From a virus, in IMG/VR virus record IMGVR_UViG_3300029309_000152, positions 4,022 to 34,030 of that record: 30,009 bases of DNA. The stretch is one strand, 5' to 3'. Position 1 is the stretch's first letter, and the number at the start of each line of letters is the position of its first letter. The notes below the pieces were generated by a model. It saw only the letters and a list, made by a program, of their open reading frames with translations. It was not told the DNA's origin and searched no databases. A program made the translations under genes and the position numbers. This document shows, piece by piece, positions 1-14,738 of this stretch.

Positions 1-29
1 GCTGCTTGTTGTGCTCTATTCTTTGCCAT
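1..29 (-). CDS. 5' end of a further late gene (partial)
   Basis: An ATG at 29 overlaps the TAA stop of the preceding 1534-residue gene in a TAATG arrangement. The frame stays open to the window edge and reads MAKNRAQQA. Only nine codons are visible, so no function can be given. The same TAATG junction recurs at six other places in the window, which supports a real start. In crAss-like phages the gene after the nozzle protein often encodes a virion cargo or tail-associated protein, but that is only inference from position. Confidence 0.6.
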
Positions 30-3000
30 TATCTATAACTTTTTCTTTTAGATGTATCTGTAAGATACAAAGATATAATATTTAATCTTTGTGTGTTCCT
101 GTCTATCAGCCTAACTCCCATATATTTATCAATAAACTTCTTTCTTGTATCAAAAGATTTTGCAATATCTAAGTATCCAGCATTCTGAGTTATCTCCATA
201 CCATCACTATTAAACTGCAAAGCAGTATTATCAGCTTCAATTGTAGCGCCTGGAACATTTGTTAAATCTGCATCATCTCTAAAGTTATTAAAATACCATC
301 CTCTTTCATTTCTCCTTGTATTTGCTCCTAAAATATATGAACCACTAAAAGGTACTATAGGTATTTCTCTAGACATCTGTTCTGAATTGTAAACAAATAT
401 ATGAGTAAATCCTGGATCATGTAATAAACTTCCCGTTGCAGCAACGTTAGTATTGTATGCTTCAGACGCTTCTACATCTACAGTCCAGTTTACAGATGAA
501 AAAAGTTTATTGTCTGAAGGACCAGCATTATCTATAAATTCAAATATAAATGGTGCAGTTCCACCCGAACCTGTAAAAAGCCCTGGTGTTCCCTTTTGGT
601 GCTGCAAATTAGCAGCAGCATATAAACTAACATTATCCTCTAGTTTATACATCTTTGTATTTGTATATGGATAAAATATAGAGCCATAATCATGAAAAGA
701 TCCCCAAGCCTTTAAGGCAGGGTAATAAGAAATAGTCCAATACTTAGCTGTAAAATATGTTAAATTAGTTATAGCTATAGCTTTTTGAGCGGGCTGACTT
801 AGTGTTTTAGGTTCAAAACTATAGGTACCAGTGTCTCGATTAAAAGTATAATTATAATCGTTAAATATATCTATCATATCCTTAGAAGGTTCTAGATAAT
901 GATATGTAAGAATAATTCTATCTAGTTGTGCATCATACCCTGCTGTAGCACCTATATTTATAGTAGGCTTATCATAATCTATAGGCAGGGCATATTCCCA
1001 CAAAGGCTGCGTCATGTTCTCCTGAAACCAACCAAACATACCCATAGTTATATCCTCTAGCTTATCAGTAAACAAAAAACATCTTTTAGAAGCAACATCA
1101 ACATAAAAATATCCATTAGTAGTAACAACTCCTGACCACTGTGATTGTGTACCACCTTGCCCTCTTTCAGTTGTTATAACTTCAGATGGATCTCTTTCAA
1201 AAAAGTCACCGCTACCTAATGATGCAGCTACTGCTCCAACAGCTAGTTCTTCTTTACCTCTTGTAAGCATAAGACTTCTTTCCATATGAGGTATAAGTAA
1301 AGATCTCATAGCTTCTAATCTCCAAAGCTCTCCACGGTGTCTAGGTAAATCTCTAAACTGTCCAGGTTTAAATACTCTAAAATTATCTGTAAGACCTGAT
1401 TGATTATACTTAACGCTTCTTATAATTCTAGTAGGAAAATCTTCTAGTGTAGATATAGGATCTTTATAGTTGTAAGGAATTATAAGTTTTATATCTCCTT
1501 CTGCATTATAATCATCATTAAAATCATAATCCCTCTGGTAGAAACCTTCTGCTGCTGCATCTTGTAATAATTTACTTCTAATATTTACGGCTGGAAAAAA
1601 TGCACTACTCTTATCTTCAGGATCTCTCTCCCGCAAAGCAGTATGACTTCTACTACTTGTAGGAAACAAATGTGTAGCACAATCAAATATTGGATTTAAG
1701 TCGTTTCCAAAATAAAGAGATGTACCGTGTCCTGGATGTATTCCTACTTGATTTATTCCTCCTTCTGGTCCAAATGCTTCTACATCAACTACATTAGATA
1801 TTTTAACCTTTGTGATACCAACCATGCCTAAGAAAGTATCTCCGCCCATAACAGTTTCAGCTGTCACTGACGTAGGATTTATAATCTGTGCGTCGGCTAA
1901 TCCTGAGGTTCTATATAAATGTCCTGTATATACAAGCTCATTTTGTTCTTCAAAGTTATTATATACATCATCTCTAATAGCATATAAATTACCAAATACA
2001 CTACTGATTCTAGTATCAAGTGCAGTATTCCAACCTCCAAAGCCTGGTTCTACACTATCAAATGGTTCAGCATCATGAACCTCTGGTACATGATATATAT
2101 TAGCATCATTAACAAGACCATTAAAATTAAGATCATCACTTAAAATTAAATATCTATCTATAGGATATACATTTAATATTATAGTTTGAGTACCATTTTC
2201 ATTTTGCACAGAACTTCCAGGCACAGTTACATTATCTGCACCTCCTGCTGGTAAGTATGATTTACCCGCTAAAGGAACTACATAGTTACCAAAGCTACCG
2301 AAAGAATTATAGTTTTGCAATCTAGCTCCTGTAGTGTATGCTCTATAATCATATTCAGCTAAATATTCACTAGGTCTAAGTCTGCACCAATCTATAAATA
2401 ATCTACTAGCCCTACCACTCCCCATATCCGCACCAGTATCATCATCTGCCACAGAAGTTATACCTTTATGAAAACCATTATTTGCATATCCTGCAGCAGC
2501 TCCCCCAGATCTATCACATAAGTTATGATACCTACATCCCTTAAACACATTAGCAGCTTCTATGCTATCTCCTGTAATTAAACTATGATACCCATCAAAT
2601 ACAGGATGATTACCTGTTTGTTTGTTGCCAGGAGAGTTCAAACTTACATCCGAAAAAGTACTTGTAGGCATTGGTATAATAATAGAATTACTGTCACTAT
2701 TATTTCTACCTGGTTCAGAAATCATACCATGATCTATAACAGTAGCATTTTCAGATGATCTGTTTGCATAATATATTTTATAGCCTAATACTAATTCTCT
2801 AATTTCTTCTGGGAATGGTATGTTATAAGCTTTAAATCCCATAGGATTAAAATACACAGTAGTATATCCCATACCTGTATACGCACCATCCCATATAAAT
2901 CCTCCACCTTGATCTGATCTAGCTCCCATACAGCTAGCTCCTGCAGCTGCGTTAGTCTCTTCACTACCGTCAGGAACAGGATTTTGTACTTGTGCTTGAG

Positions 3001-4633
3001 CACTTATAGACTCTGCAGGAAAATGATGATGTCTAACCGGTGTATTATGTAATGAGTTACCAGTAAACACAGAATTACCACCTGCATCTACTGTCCATAT
3101 TTGAAAGTCATTATTAGGATCATTAGCAACTGTAGGATAATTTTCATTATCATTTTGCCAGTACCCCATACTATTAGAACCCGGTGCTGTAGAACCTTCT
3201 GTAGTTAGATGATACATTCTAGCTGTAAGTCCTGTAGCGTTATACGCCACATTAGACCCTAAATAAGGTTGATTATCAGGATTATCTACAGCATCATAAA
3301 AGTCTGTTTCTGAAGCACCATTCTGCATAAGAGTATTTACTGCAGCTCTTCCAGGAATATGATATGCCATAGATTCAGAACCATCTTTTAGTACCCAAGT
3401 AATATAAAAAGCATAAACTTCATCTCTATCATATCCTTTAAAAAAATAATTATCATATGCAGATCTACCAAACCCCTGATTATTATTTGTTGTTCTAAAT
3501 AATCCGTCTACAGTTATACCTGCAAAGTCTCTTTGATGTGATGCATTAGCATTATCATTAGTACCTGCATTTGGGTCAAGTTGTACTGATTCTATTATAA
3601 TACTATTTGCATACTTCTGATACCCTAAATCTATCTTAGTTCTTACAAGGTTACCAAGATATAATACATCATCTACTTGAGCTATTGTTTTTGCTTTTTT
3701 ATAAGCTGCTCTAGGAACTTGTGCATCAGCTAGAGTAAATGGTTCAGCAGTCTCATACCCTGTATACTGAATAGTCATTGTAGTACCAGTAATAGGTTTA
3801 TCTGGAAGTTGAACAGCAGTTTTAATTCCTGATACCTGCTTTATAAATATAGGTCTAACTGCTGCGTACGAGACATCAATATGTCTAACATCCATAAGTA
3901 TCTTCTTACCACTGCTAGTTCCTGCATCTGCACCCATATAACCATTAACAGCATAATTTTCTGCTGCACCAAAAGGAGTATCTGCTAAACCTTCCGATAC
4001 GGCATTAATATATATAGGATTACTTACATCCAAGACATTTGTAGTAGCACCAGTTTCACTTACAAACTGTAATGTAAAATAGTATGTGCCTACATTTAGT
4101 GTACCACCACTACTTACTTTATTAAGAATTACCTTTGGATAAGATGCTATTTTTGGAAATATATCAAAAGTAACTTCTATATCTAAACCAGCTACAGGTA
4201 CAGGAGGATTAGTAAGATTCATAAATCTAGGAGGATTGTTGTCATCCGTCCAATATACTGTTACATCATCTGTAGCATTTATTTTATATTCTCCTTCAAT
4301 AGGAAATAATACATCAAAATTTAACTTATCGTTACATACAGTATCATCAAATAGTACAGTATATGTCCCTAAGCCAGAAGTAGCAGAAGTCCATCTACCT
4401 ATTCTAGAGCTGCCTAAATTATCAATAGTAAATATTACAATATCATTATCATCTAGAACTATGTACCCAACTACACTCTCATCATTATTTCCAAGTTTTT
4501 GTTGTACATCGCCTTTCTCAGAAACAATACACATTTTCTTTATATCGATAACAGCATTTTTTGCATACCGATATGTTCCAGCAGGCTGATCTATTGGACT
4601 AGTGTCCCTATTTAATCCATTTACTCTCTTCAT
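29..4633 (-). CDS. Large tail nozzle / stabilisation protein, crAss muzzle-like
   Basis: The product has 1534 residues and no signal peptide or membrane segment. The start MKRVNGLNRDTSPIDQPAGT is the pattern seen at the N-terminus of Bacteroidota podovirus tail-stabilisation proteins (conserved N-G-L/M-N-x-D, then Q-P-x-G-T-Y-R). Around residues 390-420, FKGYDRDEVYAFYITWVLKD matches the family motif of a beta strand following a R-x-E/D-x-Y-x-F core. Around 600-630, LGYKIYYANRSSEN followed by a V-I-D-H-G segment matches another repeated core. Nearly all the sequence is predicted beta, with many Asn/Gly/Tyr/Asp turns, fitting a propeller-like nozzle at the tail tip. Its start is coupled (TAATG at 4633) to a ring-like protein gene, the same pairing as ring protein and muzzle in crAss-like virions. 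It could instead be a receptor-binding tail hub. Structural role is fairly sure; exact position is inferred. Confidence 0.55.
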   Translation of the reverse strand: MKRVNGLNRDTSPIDQPAGTYRYAKNAVIDIKKMCIVSEKGDVQQKLGNNDESVVGYIVLDDNDIVIFTIDNLGSSRIGRWTSATSGLGTYTVLFDDTVCNDKLNFDVLFPIEGEYKINATDDVTVYWTDDNNPPRFMNLTNPPVPVAGLDIEVTFDIFPKIASYPKVILNKVSSGGTLNVGTYYFTLQFVSETGATTNVLDVSNPIYINAVSEGLADTPFGAAENYAVNGYMGADAGTSSGKKILMDVRHIDVSYAAVRPIFIKQVSGIKTAVQLPDKPITGTTMTIQYTGYETAEPFTLADAQVPRAAYKKAKTIAQVDDVLYLGNLVRTKIDLGYQKYANSIIIESVQLDPNAGTNDNANASHQRDFAGITVDGLFRTTNNNQGFGRSAYDNYFFKGYDRDEVYAFYITWVLKDGSESMAYHIPGRAAVNTLMQNGASETDFYDAVDNPDNQPYLGSNVAYNATGLTARMYHLTTEGSTAPGSNSMGYWQNDNENYPTVANDPNNDFQIWTVDAGGNSVFTGNSLHNTPVRHHHFPAESISAQAQVQNPVPDGSEETNAAAGASCMGARSDQGGGFIWDGAYTGMGYTTVYFNPMGFKAYNIPFPEEIRELVLGYKIYYANRSSENATVIDHGMISEPGRNNSDSNSIIIPMPTSTFSDVSLNSPGNKQTGNHPVFDGYHSLITGDSIEAANVFKGCRYHNLCDRSGGAAAGYANNGFHKGITSVADDDTGADMGSGRASRLFIDWCRLRPSEYLAEYDYRAYTTGARLQNYNSFGSFGNYVVPLAGKSYLPAGGADNVTVPGSSVQNENGTQTIILNVYPIDRYLILSDDLNFNGLVNDANIYHVPEVHDAEPFDSVEPGFGGWNTALDTRISSVFGNLYAIRDDVYNNFEEQNELVYTGHLYRTSGLADAQIINPTSVTAETVMGGDTFLGMVGITKVKISNVVDVEAFGPEGGINQVGIHPGHGTSLYFGNDLNPIFDCATHLFPTSSRSHTALRERDPEDKSSAFFPAVNIRSKLLQDAAAEGFYQRDYDFNDDYNAEGDIKLIIPYNYKDPISTLEDFPTRIIRSVKYNQSGLTDNFRVFKPGQFRDLPRHRGELWRLEAMRSLLIPHMERSLMLTRGKEELAVGAVAASLGSGDFFERDPSEVITTERGQGGTQSQWSGVVTTNGYFYVDVASKRCFLFTDKLEDITMGMFGWFQENMTQPLWEYALPIDYDKPTINIGATAGYDAQLDRIILTYHYLEPSKDMIDIFNDYNYTFNRDTGTYSFEPKTLSQPAQKAIAITNLTYFTAKYWTISYYPALKAWGSFHDYGSIFYPYTNTKMYKLEDNVSLYAAANLQHQKGTPGLFTGSGGTAPFIFEFIDNAGPSDNKLFSSVNWTVDVEASEAYNTNVAATGSLLHDPGFTHIFVYNSEQMSREIPIVPFSGSYILGANTRRNERGWYFNNFRDDADLTNVPGATIEADNTALQFNSDGMEITQNAGYLDIAKSFDTRKKFIDKYMGVRLIDRNTQRLNIISLYLTDTSKRKSYR

Positions 4634-5541
4634 TAGTAATCGATACTACGTGTTAATCGTTCTCTTGTGTTAAGGTTTTCAAATGCTGTATTGTGTCTGT
4701 TCATGTTTGGTATCATACGTACCCACTGATTCAAGAATGACTCCCATCTATCAATGTCTGGATATACAGCAGCATTTCTAGCTTGCGAGCAGTAGTATCT
4801 CCACTTCTCATCTGCAAACTGATAGTTTATACCATTAACACTGTGAGTTATTAACCCACCTAATAATAATTTTTTATATATGTACCAGAACATAGCCTCT
4901 TTGAAACTAACGTCATCTGGTATCATTGGGTAGCCATCCTCATCACAAGGAAAAGCTTTATAACTTAAACATACTTTACCTGATACAAAAGATGTTTTTA
5001 TAACACCCTCATCTACAAAATATGTTTCTTTATGCTTAGCTACTTCATTTACACAATCATCACAGTGTAAGGCTTTAGGAAACGTTCCAGTAGCATAAGA
5101 CAGTGGCTGTAAACCATTACCATCAGCAAGGTATATATTTTCTAATACAATTATTCTATTGTTTAAATCTCTAAGATCTCTTATCAAAGTTCCTGTAGGA
5201 TCTTCACAGTCTTCACAAAGAGATGCAGTATCTTGTAGTTTAAGATTTATAGCATCTACCTTTGTTATAAGCTCTGTAAGCTCGTTTTCTATAGAAGGAG
5301 ATATTGTAGTATTTATTGCTACCTGATTTATGTAATACAAATCAGCAGGCAAAGTAGCTCTATAGTTGCTAATAGTCAATACACATCCTTTTTCTACTAA
5401 CTGTGCTGATGCACCAATATGCTCAAGAGCTTCTCCTATCCATTCCACAGCATCAATAACCCAGTTACCATCAGATGTCTGTAGGTCTCTCATAACTTTA
5501 CTTATGATAGCTCTACTAGTTATATTTTTATATACTGCCAT
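4633..5541 (-). CDS. Tail ring / connector-like structural protein
   Basis: The product has 302 residues and no export signal. The first 80 residues (MAVYKNITSRAIISKVMRDL onward) are helical and are followed by ATLPADLYYINQVAI, a helix-strand-P-x-D-Y/L-Y pattern typical of connector or ring subunits in podoviruses. Two acidic cysteine pairs are conspicuous: CEDCED near residue 110 and CDDC near residue 162. A W-rich C-terminus (W-R-Y-Y-C-S, D-R-W-E-S-F-L-N-Q-W) follows. Its stop overlaps the start of the 1534-residue nozzle gene by one base, and its own start lies 14 bases inside the preceding HU/IHF-like gene. By analogy with crAss-like phages, where a ring protein precedes the muzzle, it may form the ring holding the nozzle. 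The family was not confirmed by search. Confidence 0.5.
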   Translation of the reverse strand: MAVYKNITSRAIISKVMRDLQTSDGNWVIDAVEWIGEALEHIGASAQLVEKGCVLTISNYRATLPADLYYINQVAINTTISPSIENELTELITKVDAINLKLQDTASLCEDCEDPTGTLIRDLRDLNNRIIVLENIYLADGNGLQPLSYATGTFPKALHCDDCVNEVAKHKETYFVDEGVIKTSFVSGKVCLSYKAFPCDEDGYPMIPDDVSFKEAMFWYIYKKLLLGGLITHSVNGINYQFADEKWRYYCSQARNAAVYPDIDRWESFLNQWVRMIPNMNRHNTAFENLNTRERLTRSIDY

Positions 5542-6010
5542 TCTTTTTAAATCTTAAATAGGCTAAGTCATCATTCCGCAATAGCCTTGTTAGTTTTTCC
5601 TTATTGCCCTTTATACCTCTACTAGCATCAAATCTATATACAGATTTATTTTTTACTTTGCATCTACCTTTATACCAATAGTATTTACAGTAGTATTCAT
5701 CTGTATAATATATATGCCATTTAGTTCCTTCACCTGTAGAGACATCATACAATTTTATTTTGTTTTTTACAAGTTCTGACTTGTATTTATTTGACTCTAT
5801 CCAATCTATAACTTTACGCTGAGGATCTCTGTCCATTCTAAGTATAGAAATTGTAGATAAATTATTACCCATATTAAACTCTCCGCCTTCTAAGATCATA
5901 TCAATAACCATCTCATTGAAGTCAAAACAAAGTTCTTTAAAAAGGTTTTTATCTATATCTTCTACATTAGAGTTGTAATCCTCATATATATTAGTTATAG
6001 TGTGGTTCAC
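5528..6010 (-). CDS. HU/IHF-like DNA-binding or virion protein
   Basis: The product has 160 residues. It starts with GTG at 6010, overlapping the TGA of the preceding gene as GTGA; the next in-frame Met is at residue 34, inside the conserved core, so the GTG start is preferred. The core around residues 22-68 has a helical stretch (DKNLFKELCFDFNEMVIDMI), then a G-G-E-F...L-S-T-I-S-I-L-R strand pair, then R-D-P-Q-R. That order resembles HU/IHF: helices, then a lipophilic beta arm with a basic tail and R-x-P. The C-terminal half is rich in Tyr, Lys and Arg (YYCKYYWYKGRCKVKN). IHF-like genes are known between ring protein genes in crAss-like phages, which fits this neighbourhood. It may bind packaged DNA or the genome end. 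The call is based on pattern, not a search. Confidence 0.4.
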   Translation of the reverse strand: MNHTITNIYEDYNSNVEDIDKNLFKELCFDFNEMVIDMILEGGEFNMGNNLSTISILRMDRDPQRKVIDWIESNKYKSELVKNKIKLYDVSTGEGTKWHIYYTDEYYCKYYWYKGRCKVKNKSVYRFDASRGIKGNKEKLTRLLRNDDLAYLRFKKNGSI

Positions 6011-6348
6011 TTCTTCTTAGCTTTCTTCTTTAGGCCTCCGTACATTTTGTATCCCATCTTGTTACGTACAGCTTTAGACAACATCTTTAATCCTTTCTGA
6101 TCTTCTGTAGGAGTCTTTAATCCCCCTGGTTGCATCTTCTTATAACCGCCTATCATTTTCTTCATACTTCCGTATTTATACTTCATAGTCTTCATAAGCT
6201 TATTAGCCATTCCACCCTTTTTCATCTGACCTTTGCCGTCAGCTGCATAAAAAGGAACCATTTTACCAGTCTTAGGATCTTTTACCATCTTAAGTCCTTT
6301 TTTCTTCTTTAAGCCCCCAGGCTTCATTTTAATTTTACCGTATCCCAT
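6007..6348 (-). CDS. Lys/Met/Gly-rich repetitive basic protein
   Basis: The product has 113 residues and is extremely cationic, with few acidic residues. It is built from short degenerate units around a double glycine: MKPGGLKKKKGLKM near the start, MKKGGMANKL in the middle, MIGGYKKMQPGGLK after it, and MYGGLKKKAKKK at the end. There is no signal peptide or membrane segment. It sits between two other basic or DNA-binding candidates (the DUF6321-type gene before and the HU/IHF-like gene after) inside the tail connector block. Such a composition suits contact with DNA, RNA or an acidic virion surface. The GG-centred motif recurs in the partial gene at the other end of the window (FEEGGMK, FEDGGLS). 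No named family is recognised. Confidence 0.55.
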   Translation of the reverse strand: MGYGKIKMKPGGLKKKKGLKMVKDPKTGKMVPFYAADGKGQMKKGGMANKLMKTMKYKYGSMKKMIGGYKKMQPGGLKTPTEDQKGLKMLSKAVRNKMGYKMYGGLKKKAKKK

Positions 6349-6359
6349 AATTGTATAGT

Positions 6360-6668
6360 TTAACGCCAGTTACTGCAACTACCGCAGTTCCAAGCTCTTA
6401 ATGATTTATTAATTCTTGATTGTGGATCTCTAGCCGTCTTACTAGATGTACGTCTTCTCTTCATTCCGCACATTCTACTACAGAAACTTGATCTCCTTTT
6501 ATTACCTTTCTTTTTGCTAGGAGCTTTTAGGTTACCTCCTGTTGCTCTATTATACGACGCACGACCTTTTGCATTCAATCCTCCTTTTGGATTCTTACCT
6601 GCTTTTCTTGTCCATGCTGGAGATTTAGCTCCTCCTCTTGCGTATTCTAAAATATCTTTTGCTGTCAT
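6360..6668 (-). CDS. Small basic DUF6321-type phage protein
   Basis: The product has 102 residues and is strongly basic. The signature SPAWTRKAGKNPKGGLNAKG followed by A-S-Y-N-R-A-T-G-G-N-L-K-A-P, then S-F-C-S-R-M-C-G-M and a closing L-R-A-W-N-C, is recognisable as the DUF6321 family, which is found in many marine podoviruses and myoviruses. The family is small (about 80-120 residues), so this copy looks complete. Its function is unknown. Five cysteines (C in SFCSRMC and in WNCGSCSNWR) could bind a metal, or the protein could bind nucleic acid. It lies in a compact run of short genes between two ring-like proteins. Confidence 0.75.
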   Translation of the reverse strand: MTAKDILEYARGGAKSPAWTRKAGKNPKGGLNAKGRASYNRATGGNLKAPSKKKGNKRRSSFCSRMCGMKRRRTSSKTARDPQSRINKSLRAWNCGSCSNWR

Positions 6669-6671
6669 ATC

Positions 6672-7532
6672 TTATTGTGTTGGTGGATCTTGCAGCCTAT
6701 CTAATTCTGTATCATTCATTGCAGGATTAGCAAGCATCATCATGCTACCACTAATTAAACCTTGCGTAATAGCCTCAGTCATATCTGCAGGCATAGGAAA
6801 CAGATGATTATCATCATAACAATCAGAACCATTACAATCATAATATTTCAATGCCTCAGGATCTTCAAATACCCCTCTAACATTTACAAGCTCCATGCCA
6901 CCTGGATTAAACACATATAAATAGTCTTCTATAAAAAATGCTTTCTTAGTATCTTTAGTATACTTATCATATGGTAAATATTGTATTCTATTTACATCTA
7001 CTAAAGGTATTCTCTCAAAACCATCAACAGCTCCAACAAAAGTTATAAGCTCCTTAAAATTAGCTCTGACAGATCTAGGTATAGTCATTTCAGTTCTAGC
7101 TATAATACAGTTTGTACCATCAAATGTAGGCTTTAGTCTTCCAGCATACTGATAGTTCTCTTGTATAAATGCATTAAGCTGCCCTTCTGTAGCTCCTTCT
7201 TCTTGCATAGCAGTATATTCCTTTGAGAGTTTATCAAAGATCTTATCAGTCATTTCTGCTTGTTGCATACTAAGACCTTCACTAGGTACAATATTTAAAT
7301 TGTATTCGCCACAACACCTACTTGCATCTACAGGTATAAGCCTTAAACATTTTAAATCTTGTTCTATATGTCTAGACATAAAATTATTACGAGCTAGATC
7401 TCTACGAATCATCATAGCTCTGTAATGTTTTATATTAAACTTTACTTGACTAAGAGATATATGATCATCATTATTAGATCTACCTCCTCTAACAATGTTT
7501 AAAATATTATATGCAATTTCATTTAATGTCAT
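6672..7532 (-). CDS. Tail ring / connector-like structural protein
   Basis: The product has 286 residues and no signal peptide. Its start, MTLNEIAYNILNIVRGG, then S-Q-V-K-F-N-I-K-H-Y-R-A-M-M-I-R-R-D, is a helical N-terminus shared by a ring-protein family of Bacteroidota phages. The middle carries strands with R-T-E-M-T-I-P-R-S and Y-L-Y-V-F-N-P-G. A Cys pair (RCCGEYN, near residue 93) and a C-N-G-S-D-C segment near residue 250 stand out. The last 30 residues are helical and Met-rich and may pack into a ring. It precedes the DUF6321-type gene by three bases. Together with the ring-like protein at 4633-5541 and the nozzle protein it would make the short tail. Tail-connector role is inferred from position and pattern. 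Confidence 0.45.
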   Translation of the reverse strand: MTLNEIAYNILNIVRGGRSNNDDHISLSQVKFNIKHYRAMMIRRDLARNNFMSRHIEQDLKCLRLIPVDASRCCGEYNLNIVPSEGLSMQQAEMTDKIFDKLSKEYTAMQEEGATEGQLNAFIQENYQYAGRLKPTFDGTNCIIARTEMTIPRSVRANFKELITFVGAVDGFERIPLVDVNRIQYLPYDKYTKDTKKAFFIEDYLYVFNPGGMELVNVRGVFEDPEALKYYDCNGSDCYDDNHLFPMPADMTEAITQGLISGSMMMLANPAMNDTELDRLQDPPTQ

Positions 7533-7535
7533 GTT

Positions 7536-8666
7536 TTATATATTTGTTTGTAAATACCCTTCATATCCGCGCTCTTTACTCCATATATGTGCCTGTCCTG
7601 TTCTCTTTGCTTCATACCCCATCATCTTATGCCAAGCATCGTTAGCACAGATAGAAGGTATAAATCTTACTTTTATTCCCCTATACTCATCAACCTGTTC
7701 CTTATGTTTATGTCCACAGTGTACTTCTCTAAACTTAGACTGAGCAAACAACATAGGCTGTTCTGTTGCCATTATCAGTGGCATCTCAGCAGGTTTTTCT
7801 TTATCTCCGTGTGTAAACATAATTAAGTTAACTCCGTATTTATAATATTTTCTAGAGTCAAAGTTGTTATCAACATCAACTCTCTCATCGTTTTTAAAGA
7901 ATGCTCTTAGGTATTCACCTGCATAAAACATTCTCTCGTAGTCATGATTACCTTGTACAACAACCACATCTACAGGTGCAGCATTGGCTAAGTAGTTTAT
8001 TGCTCTTACCATAAGATTACAATATCCTACAAATGTTTCTTGCCACTCTGCTGAATCTTGCTGAGGTGTACCTTTTGTAGTAGCACGGGAATATCCCTCA
8101 GAGTTCATACCATCATTACCTATTGGCAATAAGATTTTTTCTATGTTTAGGCCTTCTGCCTTAGACAGTAAATCCTTTACAGTATTCATATACTCCTCCT
8201 CAGCTTCGTCAAGTGTCTGTCCAGTATACTTACCATAGTGAATATCTGGTAAGGAGATCTCATATACAACTGGGTCTTGAACAGTATTATAGTCTTTTTC
8301 AACCTTTGGGCTGTAGGATTCTAATAAAGCAATCATTTCTTCTTTTGCTGCTTTCATTATATTATCCTCTCCTTTGACCACTACAGAGAATCTATTGTCT
8401 CCTTGCATATTCTGCCAAAACTTTACAGACTTGACATCTGTTTCATTTATTCCATTTTCTTTTAAGAACGTTTTGAACTCACTTATCTCTGAAGTACTTA
8501 CGTTGTCCAAATCAAAGTCAGATCCTTTTGCATCTATTCGCGCTTCTGTTAATGCATGTCTGCATGTTTCCACACTACAGTTTAGCTTTTCTGATAATCT
8601 GGCTGCACCTTCTTTCAGGTAACCAGGCTTCTCTCTTAGAAAAGCTTTAATTTCATCTTTAGTCAT
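7536..8666 (-). CDS. Calcineurin-like metallophosphoesterase with N-terminal helical domain
   Basis: The product has 376 residues. The di-metal phosphoesterase motifs appear in order: D-x-H at 141-143 (PDIHYG), G-N-D at 183-185 (in place of the usual GD), GNHD at 239-242, H-G-D at 286-288 and G-H-x-H at 318-321. These are the metal ligands and catalytic His of the calcineurin/Mre11/SbcD-like superfamily, so hydrolysis of a phosphoester (DNA end, nucleotide or phosphoprotein) is likely. The first 50 residues (YLKEGAARLSEKLNCSVETC) look like a helix-turn-helix or small helical domain, which may position it on DNA. It is unusual in lying among lysis and tail genes rather than replication genes; related phage proteins do occur in late regions. 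Substrate is unknown. Confidence 0.85.
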   Translation of the reverse strand: MTKDEIKAFLREKPGYLKEGAARLSEKLNCSVETCRHALTEARIDAKGSDFDLDNVSTSEISEFKTFLKENGINETDVKSVKFWQNMQGDNRFSVVVKGEDNIMKAAKEEMIALLESYSPKVEKDYNTVQDPVVYEISLPDIHYGKYTGQTLDEAEEEYMNTVKDLLSKAEGLNIEKILLPIGNDGMNSEGYSRATTKGTPQQDSAEWQETFVGYCNLMVRAINYLANAAPVDVVVVQGNHDYERMFYAGEYLRAFFKNDERVDVDNNFDSRKYYKYGVNLIMFTHGDKEKPAEMPLIMATEQPMLFAQSKFREVHCGHKHKEQVDEYRGIKVRFIPSICANDAWHKMMGYEAKRTGQAHIWSKERGYEGYLQTNI

Positions 8667-8680
8667 ATATCTAGGTTTAA

Positions 8681-9100
8681 TTAGTTTTTCTGTGTATCAT
8701 TTTTCTTTGAGCTACCGCCGAAAAAGAAGTCAACAATTGTGTTAACTTTTGCACTCATGGCCCCAAAGATAGTAGAAATAAAACTAATTTCAAACTCTCC
8801 TAAATTTATATCTCCTAGAACAAAGTGATTAAACATCACAAAACTAATACCAAAGTACGCAACTGTGAACAAAGTTGCTAACACTTTTTGTATGATAGCA
8901 TCGTCTTTATACATGTCACGTGCAGACTTTCTATCTTCTACTTCTTTAGCAAAAGCTTCACGCTCTGCTTCAAGCATTATCTTTTGTAATTCTATCTTAG
9001 CCTGATCTCTTTCTTTATCAGTTGTAATTACTTTGTCTAATATTCCTTCGGCGTTGTCTAGAACCTTGCCAAACAGTCCGCCCATTACTTTTTGTATCAT
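8681..9100 (-). CDS. Holin, three-TM phage/GTA holin family type
   Basis: The product has 139 residues. It matches the 3TM holin pattern: an amphipathic start (MIQKVMGGLFGKVLDNAEGI), a charged helix 27-68 with the typical K-E-R-D-Q-A-K and EREAFAKEVEDRKSARDMY, two hydrophobic segments (about 70-94 and 102-118), and a last helix with the hallmark NTIVDFFFGGSSKKND near the C-terminus. Holins of this group make the inner-membrane lesions that release or activate the lysin. The stop of the preceding gene directly abuts its ATG. It lies about 1.4 kb downstream of the DUF5675 lysin candidate in the same operon, giving a plausible lysis module. Confidence 0.85.
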   Translation of the reverse strand: MIQKVMGGLFGKVLDNAEGILDKVITTDKERDQAKIELQKIMLEAEREAFAKEVEDRKSARDMYKDDAIIQKVLATLFTVAYFGISFVMFNHFVLGDINLGEFEISFISTIFGAMSAKVNTIVDFFFGGSSKKNDTQKN

Positions 9101-9437: not shown

Positions 9438-10481
9438 CTATATAGTAAATATTGGTGTTCCTATTATTATATTAAAGTTTCCTTGCATAGATACAGTTGA
9501 ACTACCTGTACTATTACACACTGCTGGCATAATAAGATCTCCTGCAGATAAACTAAAAGGAGTTCCAAGTACAGTATTAACTTTATATATCTTGCTATTA
9601 GAAGTACCTCCATCATCATCACCAGCTGCAAAAAGTCTTTGAGTGTATGTTGAAGGATTACTTGTTCCTATATCAGGAGTACCTACAAATATGGCCACAT
9701 CTCTAGGATTAACCTCGTTACCGTTATTTCTAAACGATCCACTAACAGCAACTAGCTTACAGGCATGTGGCACAAACCAACCTTGTTGTTGCAAATTGCT
9801 AGCTAGTGACATAGTAACAGTACCATCAATAGCCGTGTCTCTAGCTACTCCACTATTTATAGTAAAGCTATCAGAACCAAAACCTCCATTAGCTGCAGGT
9901 AACTCATAGTTCGTACTAGTAAAACTATTAGTGTTAACTTCCCAGTTCAAGTATTGATAAGCATATAAATCACTTGTAGGTATATTTGCTGCTACAATCT
10001 CACCTCTTATAGTTGCTGATGATTTGTTTTCAACATTACCTAATGCCAAGGATGTTCTAGCTCCAGCAGCGTTAACTGCCCCAGTTCCACCATTTGCAAT
10101 AGGTAAAAATCCACTAACATCTGCAGCTAAGTCAATAGCATTCCTAGTTATCTCTTGCCCTGACAATGTTATATAATCAAGACTACCTGCTAATGTTACG
10201 TTAGTAGAGTTATCAGTTCCTGCTGCATCCACACCTAGTGCAGTTCTAGCATTTGCTGCTGAGTTTGAGTTTGTACCTCCATTAGCTATAGGTAACACGC
10301 CTGTTACATCACTAGTTAAATCTGTTGTACCACCACTTACAGTGTTCTTTACTATCTTGTTGTTTGAGTCTAGGCCTAAGTTAGCACCACTAGCAATAGT
10401 ACCCGTGCTTATATCTTCTAAATAAACATCGTTTCTAAATCTAGCAATTAAATCTTGTATGTACTGACCTATAAACTTCAT
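9438..10481 (-). CDS. Tail fibre / receptor-binding protein
   Basis: The product has 347 residues. The N-terminus MKFIGQYIQDLIARFRNDVY followed by L-E-D-I-S-T-G-T-I-A-S-G-A-N-L-G-L-D is a conserved virion-attachment start in fibre proteins of marine Bacteroidota phages. Two copies of a fibre repeat follow, at residues 57-85 and 118-148; each has a V-T/S-G-x-LPIANGGT core and then A-A-x-A-R-T-x-L. Repeats with this PIANGGTG core form the triple-stranded shaft in many tail fibres. Residues 175-347 have no repeats and are likely the receptor-binding head. The start overlaps the stop of the DUF5675 gene by one base (TAATG). The core repeat is shared with the fibre at 16952-18418, so the virion may carry two fibre types. 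Confidence 0.75.
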   Translation of the reverse strand: MKFIGQYIQDLIARFRNDVYLEDISTGTIASGANLGLDSNNKIVKNTVSGGTTDLTSDVTGVLPIANGGTNSNSAANARTALGVDAAGTDNSTNVTLAGSLDYITLSGQEITRNAIDLAADVSGFLPIANGGTGAVNAAGARTSLALGNVENKSSATIRGEIVAANIPTSDLYAYQYLNWEVNTNSFTSTNYELPAANGGFGSDSFTINSGVARDTAIDGTVTMSLASNLQQQGWFVPHACKLVAVSGSFRNNGNEVNPRDVAIFVGTPDIGTSNPSTYTQRLFAAGDDDGGTSNSKIYKVNTVLGTPFSLSAGDLIMPAVCNSTGSSTVSMQGNFNIIIGTPIFTI

Positions 10482-10948
10482 TAAGCAAAATCAATGTATT
10501 CTATTGTTACTTCTTCTCCTTGTTCTATAGCCTTCGCAATAGATGGATAAATCCTTTTATACGCATTAACGCTTTTACCAACGAACCCATCACGGAGAAT
10601 AAGATTGTTTTCTTGACTGTCTCCAACGATAAGACAGCCAGCAGTATGCTCGTCAGTATTTCCAGTATGAATAAGAATATATTCAAACCCAGGTACATCA
10701 GTGACATGCAACATACCACGGTGTATACCAGGATATTTTTTATCATATCTAGCATGAAAGCCTCCTTCTTTTCTTAGTTCTATTTTATATGTTCCTGCAG
10801 GTATTCTTGTTTCACCTTTTACTTTTAAGACTCTATGCTCATCCTCTAAGGTATAACATAAGAAATGTTTTTTTACATCACTCACCTCAAATAATGCACC
10901 ATGCGTACAGTCTGACTGTGAACTAAATCTTAATACTTCTAATTTCAT
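10481..10948 (-). CDS. DUF5675-type protein, probable peptidoglycan-acting lysin
   Basis: The product has 155 residues. It matches the DUF5675 family: R-I-P-A-G-T-Y-K-I near 48-56, YPGIHRGMLHVTDVPGFEYI at 72-91, I-H-T-G-N at 93-97, and H-T-A-G-C-L-I-V-G at 101-109. The conserved His (81 and 94) and Cys105 in a G-C context recall L,D-transpeptidase/carboxypeptidase-like sites, so a peptidoglycan-cleaving role is plausible but unproved for the family. There is no signal peptide, so release would need the holin, whose gene is downstream. Its ATG overlaps the stop of the T9SS-protein gene (ATGA). In phages of this type no other endolysin is visible in the window, which favours this gene as the lysin. 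Confidence 0.7.
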   Translation of the reverse strand: MKLEVLRFSSQSDCTHGALFEVSDVKKHFLCYTLEDEHRVLKVKGETRIPAGTYKIELRKEGGFHARYDKKYPGIHRGMLHVTDVPGFEYILIHTGNTDEHTAGCLIVGDSQENNLILRDGFVGKSVNAYKRIYPSIAKAIEQGEEVTIEYIDFA

Positions 10949-12768
10949 TCTATAATTAGTTTTGTTGTTATAGTTAAGTTTTCCTTAGAAATCTTAATTA
11001 GATATATACCTTTGTTAAGTTTTATTCTGTTTGTTTTATCTTCTAATATTAACTTACCAATAATATTGTATACCTGTAAATCTACCTTAGATACAAAGTT
11101 TACTACACCTGTTGATGGGTTTGGATATGGAAGTACACCTAATCTTTCAAACATAGTAACATCTGTAGGACCACTCCAACCTTCTTCGCAATAGTTATAT
11201 AACTCATAACAAGTATTGTCCCATGTATTATCACAGCAATATTGGTCAACCTGTATCACCCACTCAAAACATGAGTTAGGTATATAGTACGGCACACTTG
11301 CAGCACATCCTGATTCATAGTAACAACTACTATCAGGTATGTTTGCATCTACATTATAATTAACAGCAGTTATATCAGTACAACCAGCTAATGGTAATAT
11401 ACAAGAACCATTATCTACATTTGCTAAAGGATCATAGTTAAGTGCTAAACTATCCATACAGCCATTTACAACATCTATACAGCTACCATTATCTGTGTTG
11501 CATGTATCACAATAATTAAATGCTGTAGGATCTATACATCCAAAGATAAGTGGTATACAGCTACCATCATCTACATTGGCATTAGGATTATAGTTAAATG
11601 CACCGTCATCCATACATCCTTCTACAACTTCAATACAAGATCCTTCAAGCTCTACATTTGCCTCAGGATTATAATTCAAGGCCGTAGAATCCATACAACC
11701 AAGAACGATTGGTGTTAAACACGAGCCGTCGTCAAAATCTGCTTCTTCATTATACTCGATGTAGCTTGGATTCATGCATCCAGCAATATAGTAACAGCTT
11801 CCGTCGTCTGTGTTTACACTATCATTATAATTAAGTGCTGTACTATCTATACAGCCATATGTTCTATCTATACAATTATTACCACAGTTAGGCTCACCAA
11901 ATATGTAAACAAAAGGTGGTATAGGATTTACAAATCCTCCTTCAATATCTATAGCTACATACTCTTCAGAATATATACTATATCCACATTGAACTGCAGT
12001 AAAATCTGATTGTTGAGTTATATTAAACTGTACTCTTACAGGTTCTGATATACTTAGCTCAAATGTAAATGTAGTATCAAACCCTTCTTCTAGAGTAAAT
12101 TGACCTATAAAATTGTCACCTTGATAAACGTTTAAATATGATCCAGCCCAACCATTACCTGCTAAATCTGTTAACTCTAATGTGTGCATGCAGCTGTCTA
12201 TAGACTCATCTATGTTTGCCATAGAGTCATAGTTAAATGCTAGCGAATCAGTGCAACCAAATAGTTTTGGAGTAAAACACATACCTGTATCTACTGTTGC
12301 TTCTGGTAAAAACTCTAAAAAGCTATCATTCATACAGCCATATACGGGCGGTGGTGGTGCACAGTCTTCTAATGTAAATCCATGAAAAGCAGCATAACCA
12401 AAGTCTGCAGAGTCTGGACTTACTAAAGTATCACCACAATGAACTATATAGTATGATCCATCTTGACCTCCCCATATACTACCAGCCATACCGTCACCAT
12501 ATTGATCAGCTATATTAAATAAGTAATCACCATTAGGTATGCATATTTGTACTACTTGAGGCTGATAATCTACTATATCAACATACGGTCCACCAGTAGC
12601 AATAGTGTCTTCTAAAGGCGTAATAATAGCCCAAGAAGTTTCTTCTGGATATTGGTCAGGATTAATAATTATATTTACATACGTTCCGTTAGGACATTGT
12701 GCATTTGCAACACATGATACTATCATTGCAAAAAATAAAACTATATATATGTATGCTATTTTTTTCAT
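10945..12768 (-). CDS. Secreted repeat protein with T9SS C-terminal sorting domain
   Basis: The product has 607 residues from the ATG at 12768, one base after the previous stop. An upstream in-frame ATG at 12798 would bury the signal peptide, so it is rejected. Residues 1-23 (MKKIAYIYIVLFFAMIVSCV, then ANA|Q) are a Sec signal peptide. Residues 24-135 hold a domain with N-P-D-Q-Y-P-E-E-T-S-W and DQYGDGMAG, found in exported Bacteroidota proteins. Nine Cys-bounded repeats of form G-C-[TMI]-D-x3-[AF]-x-N-Y-[ND] ... D-G-S-C lie between 144 and 482. A YCCDNTWDNTC segment lies at about 510-520. Residues about 543-607 are a type-A T9SS sorting domain: LGVLPYPNPSTG, then L-Q-V-Y-N-I-I-G-K, then K-G-I-Y-L-I-K-I, ending T-K-L-I-I-E. 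PorU-type processing and cell-surface anchoring or release are expected. A host-type surface protein inside a phage late operon is very unusual. Confidence 0.88.
   Translation of the reverse strand: MKKIAYIYIVLFFAMIVSCVANAQCPNGTYVNIIINPDQYPEETSWAIITPLEDTIATGGPYVDIVDYQPQVVQICIPNGDYLFNIADQYGDGMAGSIWGGQDGSYYIVHCGDTLVSPDSADFGYAAFHGFTLEDCAPPPPVYGCMNDSFLEFLPEATVDTGMCFTPKLFGCTDSLAFNYDSMANIDESIDSCMHTLELTDLAGNGWAGSYLNVYQGDNFIGQFTLEEGFDTTFTFELSISEPVRVQFNITQQSDFTAVQCGYSIYSEEYVAIDIEGGFVNPIPPFVYIFGEPNCGNNCIDRTYGCIDSTALNYNDSVNTDDGSCYYIAGCMNPSYIEYNEEADFDDGSCLTPIVLGCMDSTALNYNPEANVELEGSCIEVVEGCMDDGAFNYNPNANVDDGSCIPLIFGCIDPTAFNYCDTCNTDNGSCIDVVNGCMDSLALNYDPLANVDNGSCILPLAGCTDITAVNYNVDANIPDSSCYYESGCAASVPYYIPNSCFEWVIQVDQYCCDNTWDNTCYELYNYCEEGWSGPTDVTMFERLGVLPYPNPSTGVVNFVSKVDLQVYNIIGKLILEDKTNRIKLNKGIYLIKISKENLTITTKLIIE
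11323..12339 (-). repeat. Nine GC(T/M)D...GSC cysteine-bounded repeats
   Basis: Within the T9SS protein, units of about 21 residues begin with G-C and end with S-C, each containing a N-Y-[ND] core and an Asp/Asn-rich end. Two are separated from the rest by a beta domain; seven run almost in tandem (for example GCMDDGAFNYNPNANVDDGS with a closing Cys). The two Cys likely pair, and the D-x-D-D-G end resembles a calcium-binding loop. The unit is common in surface proteins of marine Flavobacteriia. Confidence 0.85.
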
Positions 12769-12769
12769 A

Positions 12770-13333
12770 TTATTGTATTGTAAGTTGAATACTACCAAAG
12801 ACTCTACTGCCGTCTGTACTATTACATTTTATATTTATTACCTGACCGCTTGATTTAGGCAGTGATTGAACTCTATTAATGCTACCTGTTGTACTTTGCA
12901 ACCTTGCATGAATTGAGTCAATACTCCAATGAAATTTTGTTTTTTCTGTAGCGTCACTTGGTCGTACAACCGCCTCAACATCTATAGTGCCACCATTATC
13001 TACAAGCACTGCACCTTTTGGTATTCTTAAATCTAAGCGAGTAAGTCTTTTAAAAGGTATTTCACTATGGCTTTCTATAAATGCTAATTTTTTTGCTGTT
13101 TCTTTGTCTTCGTTTTCAAAACCTCTTGTAGTAGTTACTTTTGTTTTTTCACTTGTGCTTAAAGCATTTTTCTGCGTGCCTGTAAATATAACAACTTCAT
13201 ATACATCAGCGCTTGCATCTATAGCATACGGCGTATCTATGCTTGTACCACTAGGATAACCTAACGCGGCGTTAGCTTTTGCTATAATTGTATTGCACTC
13301 TGCTTGTGTTCCTGTAAAAATTTCTCTAGCCAT
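12770..13333 (-). CDS. Protein with C-terminal Ig-like (BIG2-type) domain
   Basis: The product has 187 residues and no signal peptide. Residues 1-100 begin MAREIFTGTQAECNTIIAKA and are of unknown type. Residues about 103-187 look like a bacterial Ig-like domain: L-D-L-R-I-P-K-G-A-V-L, then T-I-D-V-E-A-V-V-R-P-S-D-A, then F-H-W-S-I-D-S, ending G-S-I-Q-L-T-I-Q. Ig-like domains often decorate capsids, tails or fibres and bind cell-surface sugars weakly. Its start is coupled to the LamG gene by TAATG at 13333. CGC/GCG-containing codons are visibly more frequent here than in the flanking genes, suggesting recent acquisition together with the LamG gene. A virion decoration or fibre-tip role is likely. 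Confidence 0.6.
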   Translation of the reverse strand: MAREIFTGTQAECNTIIAKANAALGYPSGTSIDTPYAIDASADVYEVVIFTGTQKNALSTSEKTKVTTTRGFENEDKETAKKLAFIESHSEIPFKRLTRLDLRIPKGAVLVDNGGTIDVEAVVRPSDATEKTKFHWSIDSIHARLQSTTGSINRVQSLPKSSGQVINIKCNSTDGSRVFGSIQLTIQ

Positions 13334-14118
13334 TATGTCATACTATTACGTGCCTTTATATCTGCTCTAACTAGAGCACATTCATCGACTGTTAATTTTC
13401 TATTAAATATTGCTATCTCATCTATATATCCTTTTACATAAAAATTACTATGATCTACACTTACCGCGCCAAATTCCATGTTATGATTACCACTATTAGC
13501 TTTTGTTGCCGATACAACTTGAGTAAGACTACCACCATTTGGATCTGTACTTATAACCATACTTTTGTCTCCAGCGCCATCACCACCTCCGTAAACAAAT
13601 TGTATAATAGTTTTTTTATCGTTTTCTATAGCTCCGTTAGTAGTAGTAGAAAGAAGCGAATTATCTGCAACACCACTACCTTCTGTTATAACTTGCCAAA
13701 GCTGAGAGGTTGTTCCACGCATTTCACCCCACATTAAAGTATCAAGCGTACTATTAACATTAGTTGCGTTTAAAAGCGCGTTAAAATTATTATCAGATAT
13801 TAAACTAAACTCTACTACTAAAAAAACTGAATACGCGACAGAATTAGGCACAGCGCCATTAGTTATATTCATATAACTCTGTCCAACATCGCCAAAGTTA
13901 ACACGCCCACTTTCATAAGTTGGGCGTTTATTAGTTGCAGTAGTATTAGTTAGTGTATGATTATTACCACTAGCATCTGCCCACGATTCTAAAGCGTCAC
14001 CATCTACAACTTGTCCTGTATTAAAAGGATACCAAGCAACTAGACCTGATAAGCCATCTATTGTAAACCCTCCAGTATAAGAAGGCCTATGTACTCCTAA
14101 TCCTAAACCTAATCCCAT
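13333..14118 (-). CDS. LamG / concanavalin-A-like lectin-fold protein
   Basis: The product has 261 residues. It starts with an odd Gly-Leu run (MGLGLGLGVHRPSY), then a LamG-like jelly roll from about residue 22: L-S-G-L-V-A-W-Y-P-F-N, D-A-L-E-S-W-A-D-A-S-G-N-N-H, Y-S-V-F-L-V-V-E-F, and a closing G-Y-I-D-E-I-A-I-F-N-R-K-L-T at about 232-245. That last motif is the hallmark of LamG/laminin-G-like glycan-binding domains. No export signal is present, so it is more likely a virion adhesin than a secreted protein. Its codon use, richer in GCG and CGC than the neighbours, matches the downstream Ig-like gene, so the two may have arrived together. Glycan specificity cannot be told from sequence. Confidence 0.8.
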   Translation of the reverse strand: MGLGLGLGVHRPSYTGGFTIDGLSGLVAWYPFNTGQVVDGDALESWADASGNNHTLTNTTATNKRPTYESGRVNFGDVGQSYMNITNGAVPNSVAYSVFLVVEFSLISDNNFNALLNATNVNSTLDTLMWGEMRGTTSQLWQVITEGSGVADNSLLSTTTNGAIENDKKTIIQFVYGGGDGAGDKSMVISTDPNGGSLTQVVSATKANSGNHNMEFGAVSVDHSNFYVKGYIDEIAIFNRKLTVDECALVRADIKARNSMT

Positions 14119-14119
14119 A

Positions 14120-14458
14120 TTAAAATTTACTCATTATTAATTCGTCAATATAATTCTGTATCTCTTTTCTTGTAGCTACCATTTCAAAACTAAGATCTGC
14201 TTGAAATCTTTTAACTTCTTCTCCTTCATCAAACACTATAATAGTAGGCACAATAGCAATAGCATATTCTTTTTGTATATCCGTATCATCTATACTTAAA
14301 CTTTTTTTACCAGCATCTGATAGTTTATCAAACCACTCAACATCATTAGCTTCATTCCAGCCTGCATTAAAATGAATCACTGTGATCTGCGAAAAAGCAG
14401 TATACGAGGCCGTACAAAAAAATACCAATAATAAATGCTTGTATATAACTTTCCACAT
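14120..14458 (-). CDS. Exported thioredoxin-fold protein without CXXC
   Basis: The product has 112 residues. Residues 1-23 (MWKVIYKHLLLVFFCTASYT, then AFS|Q) form a signal peptide. The rest has a thioredoxin-like order: strand ITVIHFNAGWNEAND (25-39), helix, D-T-D-I-Q-K-E-Y-A-I, the cis-Pro loop I-V-P-T-I-I-V-F (69-76) and strand G-E-E-V-K-R-F-Q-A-D, then a C-terminal helix. The active-site position, normally W-C-x-x-C, reads W-N-E-A-N, so redox activity is not expected. It may act as a periplasmic binding or folding partner. Its ATG overlaps the stop of the membrane-protein gene by one base (TAATG at 14458). Similar exported proteins occur in marine phages, but a function is not known to me. 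Confidence 0.7.
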   Translation of the reverse strand: MWKVIYKHLLLVFFCTASYTAFSQITVIHFNAGWNEANDVEWFDKLSDAGKKSLSIDDTDIQKEYAIAIVPTIIVFDEGEEVKRFQADLSFEMVATRKEIQNYIDELIMSKF

Positions 14459-14736
14459 TATTTATAAAGTTTATCTTCTATTTTTTCTAATGTAGCTTTT
14501 ATTTCAGTTACATCTTCTTGTGTATTCATAATAGTATTACGAATCATTTGATCCTTCATATCAAACTCCATTCGTGTTACTTCTGGGTCTGGGGCTACTG
14601 GCAATTCTTTTGCCTCAGCTATTTCGCCTTTCAGTGTAAACCACATGCCTGTCATAGTTACTAATACAAAACCTAATGATATAATTGTTTCTAAGCTTAA
14701 TTTAATTTTAGTGTCTTTTCCTATTTCAGTTGCCAT
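14458..14736 (-). CDS. Single-pass membrane protein with coiled coil
   Basis: The product has 92 residues. One transmembrane segment lies at about 15-36 (LETIISLGFVLVTMTGMWFT). It is followed by a proline-rich spacer (L-P-V-A-P-D-P-E-V) and a charged coiled coil over about 55-90. The topology and size resemble small lysis-associated membrane proteins such as an i-spanin, or a second holin, but no spanin partner is obvious. It is coupled by TAATG to the exported thioredoxin-fold gene and follows the outer-membrane barrel gene by two bases, so the three could act together across the envelope. The membrane call is firm; the role is inferred. Confidence 0.6.
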   Translation of the reverse strand: MATEIGKDTKIKLSLETIISLGFVLVTMTGMWFTLKGEIAEAKELPVAPDPEVTRMEFDMKDQMIRNTIMNTQEDVTEIKATLEKIEDKLYK

Positions 14737-14738
14737 TT

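Follow-up and report, generated by a model that had tools for sequence, protein, structure and literature searches.

The closest described systems to the locus considered here are the phages PhiCrAss001, phi14:2 and Fpv3, with which we compare a 30,009-nt stretch of viral DNA, hereafter the window, that forms bases 4022-34030 of the 34,030-base IMG/VR virus record IMGVR_UViG_3300029309_000152. Two subjects concern us: a capsid and tail gene block, by which the window virus is almost certainly a crAss-like podovirus and the window the capsid-to-muzzle part of its late gene block, and an envelope cassette of four genes (OMP, h92, TRX and T9S) carried within that block. PhiCrAss001, a Bacteroides phage of the Steigviridae with a solved virion, resembles the window in the gene order major capsid protein (MCP), gp33, ring protein 3/4 (R3/4), gp36, ring protein 2 (R2), IHF-family protein, ring protein 1 (R1) and muzzle, and in possessing a DUF5675 homologue (gp30); it differs in having two R3/4 genes where the window has one, and in placing its fibre and lysis genes before the MCP gene rather than between R3/4 and R2. 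The roles of its proteins are taken from the available parts of PMC10172136 and from the annotation of its record. phi14:2, a Cellulophaga phage of the Steigviridae isolated from seawater, shares with the window the R2-IHF-R1 order and the position of its fibre, endolysin and phosphoesterase genes in a slot that separates R3/4 from R2, and its giant RNA polymerase has a homologue in relatives of the window virus. It belongs, however, to a separate clade in MCP, large terminase subunit (TerL) and portal trees, its large tail protein is missed by our muzzle profile, and no cassette protein has a match in the 50 kb of phi14:2 compared. Fpv3, a Flavobacterium phage (Fipvunavirus), likewise has a nuclease before R2 and three ring genes, but sits on a separate long branch, has a different fibre/lysis slot and shows no cassette match in the 50 kb compared.

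Phage genes with type IX secretion system (T9SS) sorting domains are also already published, for Cryophage (Bellas et al. 2020, PMC7468147) and for BACON cluster-2 phages (PMC6949934); in the accessible parts of these papers the cargo comprises enzymes and PA14 or BACON proteins, and the OMP/h92/TRX cassette is unmentioned. The tail block and the crAss affinity are of a known kind, and the cassette is the part worth following. While phage-borne T9SS cargo is known, the four-gene OMP-h92-TRX-T9S cassette seems to have no earlier report, going by title and abstract opening among the matches listed, with subscription papers outside reach.

The first-pass annotation had read positions 29-7532 as a ring-like protein, two small basic proteins, an HU/IHF-like protein, another ring-like protein and a 1534-residue nozzle protein, and had suggested a crAss-like phage from this order and, on that condition, a marine virus with an acquired island aimed at the envelope. 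The six open reading frames (ORFs) lie exactly there, contiguous and on the minus strand, as do all 31 non-overlapping ORFs of the whole 34,030-base record, and the proposed order stands: transcription runs from R2 through the two basic proteins, the IHF-family protein and R1 to the 1534-aa muzzle. The capsid and tail genes, in the direction of transcription, are:

26230..27645, minus strand: major capsid protein, 471 aa (Pfam Crass_capsid PF23898, E 3.8e-80, over cut-off)
25276..26088, minus strand: homologue of PhiCrAss001 gp33, 270 aa (E 1e-12; all three phages matched)
24137..25276, minus strand: ring protein 3/4, 379 aa (Pfam CrAss_Ring_3_4, E 2.5e-5; PhiCrAss001 gp34)
23037..24092, minus strand: homologue of PhiCrAss001 gp36, 351 aa (hhalign 93.9%, E 1.6e-7)
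6672..7532, minus strand: ring protein 2, 286 aa (Pfam CrAss_Ring_2, E 1.3e-28, over cut-off; PhiCrAss001 gp40)
6360..6668, minus strand: small basic protein with DUF6321, 102 aa, 28 K+R and 3 D+E (Pfam DUF6321, E 6.8e-22)
6007..6348, minus strand: small basic protein, 113 aa, 35 K+R and 4 D+E (by composition)
5528..6010, minus strand: HU/IHF-family protein, 160 aa (hhalign to the gp42 family)
4633..5541, minus strand: ring protein 1, 302 aa (Pfam CrAss_Ring_1, E 3.9e-60, over cut-off; PhiCrAss001 gp43, E 3.4e-23)
29..4633, minus strand: muzzle (nozzle), 1534 aa (PhiCrAss001 gp44 in the PDB; Fpv3 gp29; phrog_15100, E 3.8e-43)

We assign the window virus to the crAss-like phages because MCP, R1 and R2 exceed crAss-specific Pfam cut-offs, because the MCP, R3/4, R2 and muzzle queries match solely PhiCrAss001 gp32, gp34, gp40 and gp44 in the PDB, because the gene order is that of PhiCrAss001, phi14:2 and Fpv3, and because relatives encode a crAss-type TerL, a portal and a giant RNA polymerase homologue. 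A search of the sequences of solved structures with MCP, R3/4, R2 and muzzle, in line with the check that had been proposed against the PhiCrAss001 virion, returned one distinct sequence per query at the threshold used, always from that virion: gp32 for MCP (E 7.8e-13, searched up to 0.001), gp34 for the R3/4 profile (E 9.9e-7), gp40 for the R2 profile (E 1.2e-6) and gp44 for the muzzle family profile (E 2.7e-11, searched up to 0.1; profile positions 3-375 of 1672). One profile per window protein, built from relatives, was then run against the ORFs of a 50-kb late region from each of PhiCrAss001, phi14:2 and Fpv3. The profiles of MCP (gp32, E 1e-22), R3/4 (gp34, E 4.4e-11), R2 (gp40, E 2.4e-9) and R1 match all three phages, and those of R2, the IHF-family protein and R1 match genes in the same order in each. 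The muzzle profile finds Fpv3 gp29 (E 9.7e-108) and PhiCrAss001 gp44 (E 2e-15) but, with matches listed up to E 1, no protein of phi14:2, which has a large virion protein in the muzzle's place. The product of 5528-6010 is an IHF-family protein, a label that rests on homology: its profile matches PhiCrAss001 gp42 (E 8.4e-6), the phi14:2 'IHF subunit' (E 1.1e-10) and Fpv3, and hhalign against the family of gp42 and the phi14:2 protein gives 97.4% (E 1.3e-11). Neither this family nor that of the 351-aa gp36 homologue has a match among the sequences of solved structures. The window carries a crass-type MCP, several paralogous ring proteins (R1, R2, R3/4), a muzzle after ring 1 and, by homology, an IHF-family gene in the structural block, all features of Crassvirales; when the tail names of Yutin et al. 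are equated with muzzle and R1, MCP, IHF, muzzle and R1 of the genes that they name are found on the record, and TerL and portal in relatives.

A scan of IMG/VR with MCP gave 396 related stretches, the best 80 of which were kept, and six longer relatives were taken from them (G001, 58 kb; G002, 80 kb; G004, 93 kb; G005, 90 kb; G006, 87 kb; G009, 88 kb); the same scan of genome contigs gave no relative. G001 is a near-copy of the window virus (MCP 99% identical) and ends before TerL and portal, which are present and crAss-type in all five of the long relatives that reach them (TerL E 3.2e-207 in G002). All six encode a giant protein that bears an SDFD[IV]D motif and is a homologue of the catalytic subunit of the phi14:2 RNA polymerase (E 3.8e-21 to 4.2e-9); the window record itself does not include this gene. 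Trees included Fpv3 and 14 or 15 reference phages of four Crassvirales families, with csAssE-Sib and phi4:1 as the root; Crevaviridae had one row and Darmviridae none. The group forms one clade for MCP (support 100/99, seven rows), TerL (100/100, five rows) and portal (100/100, five rows), and in all three trees it nests in none of Steigviridae, Intestiviridae, Suoliviridae and Crevaviridae. The window virus and its relatives are their own clade among the sampled Crassvirales families, at what we take as family-level distance because the best named match of the G002 TerL, cr60_1 of the Suoliviridae, is 42.6% identical and the best rows for the window MCP about 30%. That the virus instead belongs to an existing family, for example Steigviridae with phi14:2, or with Fpv3 in Fipvunavirus, we consider improbable: phi14:2 has the same slot arrangement, including the phosphoesterase before ring 2, and Fpv3 gives the best profile scores of the three phages for muzzle, R1, R2, R3/4 and MCP, but in every tree the clade is separate from Fpv3 and from those Steigviridae, Suoliviridae, Intestiviridae and Crevaviridae that were sampled, with Darmviridae outside the sample. 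Within the limits of the literature search given above, we found no published name for the group or for a marine crAss-like family, and no paper that brings Flavobacterium psychrophilum, phage and crAss-like together.

Several points weigh against the crAss-like assignment. The 34,030-nt record reaches neither TerL nor portal, MCP is only 23.8% identical to that of PhiCrAss001, R3/4 as a single sequence falls below its Pfam cut-off (E 2.5e-5), and the muzzle match to PhiCrAss001 spans about the N-terminal quarter. The IHF fold is unconfirmed, as the AlphaFold model is poor (pLDDT 53) and the top two Foldseek rows, both IHF, reach only E 2.3 and 3.4. The sister group also differs by tree, being Intestiviridae with Crevaviridae for MCP (100/99), Intestiviridae, Crevaviridae and Fpv3 for TerL (91/98) and without resolution for portal, and all three trees carry long-branch warnings. 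Lastly, three control genomes with another capsid type (G029, G079 and G039) weakly match Crassvirales profiles (TerL E 4e-22 to 1.6e-21; portal 1e-11 to 3e-6). Such viruses, with a capsid of the phrog_13704 type, also possess the envelope cassette, and one could suppose that the window virus is a podovirus of that other type, for example Pachyviridae-like, whose ring and nozzle tail was borrowed or is convergent. We regard this as exceedingly unlikely, given that the whole set of MCP, gp33, gp36, R3/4, R2, IHF, R1 and muzzle is of crAss type and follows the crAss order, whereas the three control genomes match none of R1, R2, R3/4, IHF, MCP and muzzle at E 1e-4; a non-crAss podovirus was rejected on the capsid, ring and muzzle matches. 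A chimeric contig was rejected as well, since the 58-kb G001 shows the genes of the window record in identical order. The crAss-like affinity first read from the tail block is thus upheld by the capsid, ring and muzzle matches and by the gene order shared with PhiCrAss001 and Fpv3, and neither the capsid, taken from the window record, nor the portal, taken from five relatives, groups outside Crassvirales, the outcome that the first-pass annotation had named as contradicting it.

Alongside these homologies, the gene order and the separate clade, we propose a tail assembly modelled on that solved for PhiCrAss001. A 12-fold barrel of stacked rings (1, 2 and 3/4) would sit beneath the portal, its end closed by a hexamer of the 1534-aa muzzle that would open on touching the cell. 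DNA binding or condensation is the probable role of the IHF-family and basic proteins, and cargo proteins, probably including the RNA polymerase, would be carried in the head and tail. The 113-aa basic protein (6007-6348) has no family match in Pfam or PHROGs. The DUF6321 basic protein (6360-6668) matches the C-terminal end of eight PHROG families that are 99 to 928 positions long.

G048 (L273-L275), a crAss-like record of 60 kb, has a divergent capsid (E 3e-37) and, besides a muzzle of 1716 aa, R3/4, R2, IHF and R1; it perhaps represents a second compact branch. G081 (L279-L282) is a large record with a 2521-aa muzzle-like ORF together with R1 and R2; G061, G062, G066, G067, G069 and G078 have distant crass capsids, and these six and G081 are records of 72-129 kb. 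Genes for an RIIA-like protein and for a DNA polymerase of family A are present in G002 (L099:14884-17619, L100:4771-6675).

Between ring 3/4 and ring 2 lies a slot of fibre and lysis genes, which reads from R3/4 as the gp36 homologue of 351 aa, a protein of 183 aa, a fibre-like protein of 1324 aa, proteins of 488, 136, 128 and 106 aa, OMP, h92, TRX, proteins of 261 and 187 aa, T9S, the DUF5675 protein, proteins of 347 and 111 aa, a probable holin and a phosphoesterase. The cassette is formed by OMP, h92, TRX and T9S. Its genes, with an optional member, are:

14739..15770, minus strand: OMP, cassette gene 1, predicted 12-strand outer-membrane beta-barrel, 343 aa (AlphaFold pLDDT 76.4)
14458..14736, minus strand: h92, cassette gene 2, 92 aa, one apparent membrane helix and a charged tail (read from the sequence; 46-sequence alignment)
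14120..14458, minus strand: TRX, cassette gene 3, thioredoxin-like, with a signal-peptide-like start and no CxxC (Pfam Thioredoxin, E 0.026, below cut-off; alignment)
13333..14118, minus strand: optional cassette member, 261 aa (phrog_10356, E 1.4e-4; 16 family hits in fetched cassette loci)
10945..12798, minus strand: T9S, cassette gene 4, 617 aa, with a type IX secretion C-terminal domain (Por_Secre_tail, E 5e-9)

The features that flank the cassette in the slot are:

22423..22974, minus strand: Cys-rich protein, 183 aa, possible tail-hub (by position; weak TPR-like C-terminus)
18439..22413, minus strand: large fibre-like protein, 1324 aa (occupies the position of the phi14:2 pectate-lyase fibre)
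10481..10948, minus strand: DUF5675 protein, homologue of PhiCrAss001 gp30, annotated L,D-carboxypeptidase (Pfam E 1.4e-28; gp30 E 3.8e-17)
8681..9100, minus strand: probable holin, 139 aa (phrog_3427 holin, E 1.9e-4; Pfam GTA_holin_3TM, E 0.0017, below cut-off)
7536..8666, minus strand: calcineurin-like phosphoesterase, annotated exonuclease family (phrog_704, E 6.2e-59; phi14:2 g075, E 3.1e-6)

The suggestion that this virus has gained an envelope-targeted island survives only for a part of the slot. The same slot in phi14:2 holds structural proteins, the pectate-lyase fibre, an endolysin and a phosphoesterase, and in both phages the phosphoesterase adjoins ring 2; as the phi14:2 slot also carries fibres and lysis genes, the region as a whole is no insertion, and an isolated gained island was rejected. 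The sub-part 10945-15770 is, by contrast, patchy among relatives, being present in the window virus, G001, G002 and G005 and missing from G006 and G009, whose slots are intact; it was not seen in G004, where contig ends cut the slot. Elsewhere in the slot, the 183-aa protein reaches only 11% by hhalign against the hub protein gp38, and the 1324-aa fibre-like protein has no family match in Pfam or PHROGs.

The OMP model is best described as a 12-strand outer-membrane barrel. Two structure searches with it each listed 50 PDB rows that are by title membrane barrels or complexes holding one; among the matches listed, the best by VIA-align was the OmpG variant 4ctd (Z 12.2, rmsd 5.3, 189 aligned), and one Foldseek row alone fell under E 0.001 (NanC porin, 8.2e-6). 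In a viral-structure search OMP also found the phage protein A0A516LKJ4 (TM 0.59, E 4.6e-25, 24% identity), a likely homologue that was not traced to a phage. Alignments comprised the window's own sequence with 35 of 59 non-redundant T9S, 62 of 67 OMP, 48 of 51 TRX and all 45 h92 ORFs. The 63 OMP members gave no Pfam family, only single-member matches at E 0.003 or worse, and PHROGs at E 0.01 returned nothing for OMP, TRX or T9S. CxxC is present in nine of 99 TRX family hits and lacking in the other 90, some contigs being counted twice. T9S (10945-12798) has the properties of a T9SS cargo, with PF18962 over cut-off and a signal peptide that was read from the sequence rather than by a predictor, and the sorting domain is found in 30 of the 36 aligned members. 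By our own motif, signal-peptide-like starts occur in 101 of 115 OMP, 89 of 98 TRX and 81 of 91 T9S ORFs from the fetched loci, which include some contigs twice. A repeat of the type GC.D..A.NYN occurs six times in T9S and twice in the 1324-aa fibre-like protein (18439-22413), and in none of 1000 shuffles of each; the two proteins look as if virion fibre and displayed protein used one repeat stock.

An OMP scan of IMG/VR gave 100 relatives, of which 79 distinct loci were kept, and a T9S scan gave 44. Partners were sought within a 6-kb span, T9S being counted only at up to 1.8 kb from TRX, which left 66 testable loci (13 were too short) and missed loci with a T9S-type ORF and TRX out of reach, at least L162, L195, L196 and L199. 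TRX accompanies OMP in 56 of the 66, T9S in 51 and h92 in 48; 42 have all three and 24 are without at least one by this distance rule. Twenty-seven of the 79 records match a crass capsid: 14 at E below 1e-75 (the window clade), six at 1e-31 to 1e-38, six at 1e-18 to 1e-23 and one at 1e-8, the class of G018 depending on a match of only 1.3e-8. The other 52, many of them fragments, have no such match, and among the 50 of these examined 23 have the phrog_13704 capsid and 27 neither. The cassette thus recurs in three capsid classes besides that of the window clade, one of them without a crass-capsid match. As for the phrog_13704 class, in G079 TerL has its best named match, at 65% identity, in an unclassified podovirus from Manatee Spring; it is 46% identical to Flavobacterium phages and has further matches to Cellulophaga, Tenacibaculum and Maribacter phages. 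From its matches to phages of Cellulophaga hosts #13, #18 and #19 and from the species names of the family, we infer that these phages may be Pachyviridae-like. The available parts of PMC10172136 mention phi13:2 as having only an R3/R4 gene, so that phages of this sort may be regarded as distant kin of the crAss-like phages.

The cassette appears to have moved between phage lineages. In an OMP tree of 51 rows, limited to loci with a capsid class and an OMP of at least 300 aa (48 of the 79) together with the window and two outgroup loci, the four capsid classes interleave, and well-supported branches require a minimum of five label changes for the window clade. G048, whose MCP is 29% identical to that of the window, and G055, with a window-clade capsid, have OMPs that are 95% identical and DNA that is 83.6% identical over 2,945 columns of OMP-h92-TRX-T9S; beyond this, their DNA matches in two further stretches of T9S (332 and 173), in one of DUF5675 (458) and in a single stretch of 138 bases. 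DNA identity between these unlike phages is centred on the cassette. The reverse holds for the window and G002, with MCPs that are 92.8% identical and OMPs that are only 71.3% identical. Exchange between lineages is the simplest reading of the interleaved tree and these two contrasts. Among 84,980 species genomes, a pattern-limited scan turned up no more than two OMP-encoding loci, on contigs in metagenome-assembled genomes labelled Sphingobacteriales and Winogradskyella, both Bacteroidota, the former with a gene neighbourhood much like that of G039. Queries with T9S, OMP and a distant OMP were run by tblastn against phage records, and none of the records within reach carries these genes.

As to function, the cassette would probably alter the outer surface of the host late in infection. 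It may mask or rebuild that surface, for superinfection exclusion or for release from debris, with the host T9SS displaying the cargo and the barrel acting as partner, a reading to which we give almost an even chance. Signal-peptide-like starts in most OMP, TRX and T9S ORFs and the T9SS C-terminal domain in 30 of 36 aligned members are consistent with it; cells have barrel partners of T9SS cargo, and a superinfection role has been proposed for Cryophage T9SS cargo in the accessible part of PMC7468147. In cells, however, the PorP/SprF barrels hold type B cargo, according to the part of PMC9143113 available. The 63 OMP members show no PorP/SprF-family match in Pfam, and the OMP model has 12 strands (pLDDT 76) against a FadL-like barrel of 14. 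The Pfam sorting domain matched by the T9S C-terminal domain is one that we take to be type A, which also counts against such a partnership. The cassette could instead serve lysis by breaking the outer membrane at the end of infection, which we think possible but rather doubt. It lies near holin-like and DUF5675 genes in many mapped loci, the DUF5675 gene shares its first 4 nt with the end of the T9SS cargo gene, and h92 weakly matches a 'lipoprotein' PHROG (E 0.0096) and has an outline that, as we presume, resembles an inner-membrane spanin; lysis, on the other hand, requires no T9SS export signal, and no outer-membrane lipoprotein partner was seen, although no search was aimed at one. Returning to display at the surface, we put forward tentatively, and with slightly less than even confidence, that Bacteroidota phages, crAss-like or not, swap a cassette of about 3 kb (OMP/h92/TRX/T9S) that commandeers the host T9SS to rebuild the cell surface late in infection, which would make it a new mobile, family-crossing module of envelope takeover.

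Research on crAss-like phages has centred on the gut. The window virus adds to them a branch with many uncultured members, seen in the 396 related stretches of IMG/VR, in which the gene block of stacked rings and muzzle persists at 24% capsid identity. With a cassette that several phage lineages share and that brings its own address for secretion, it becomes testable whether phages use the T9SS of Bacteroidota to control the surface of the infected cell.

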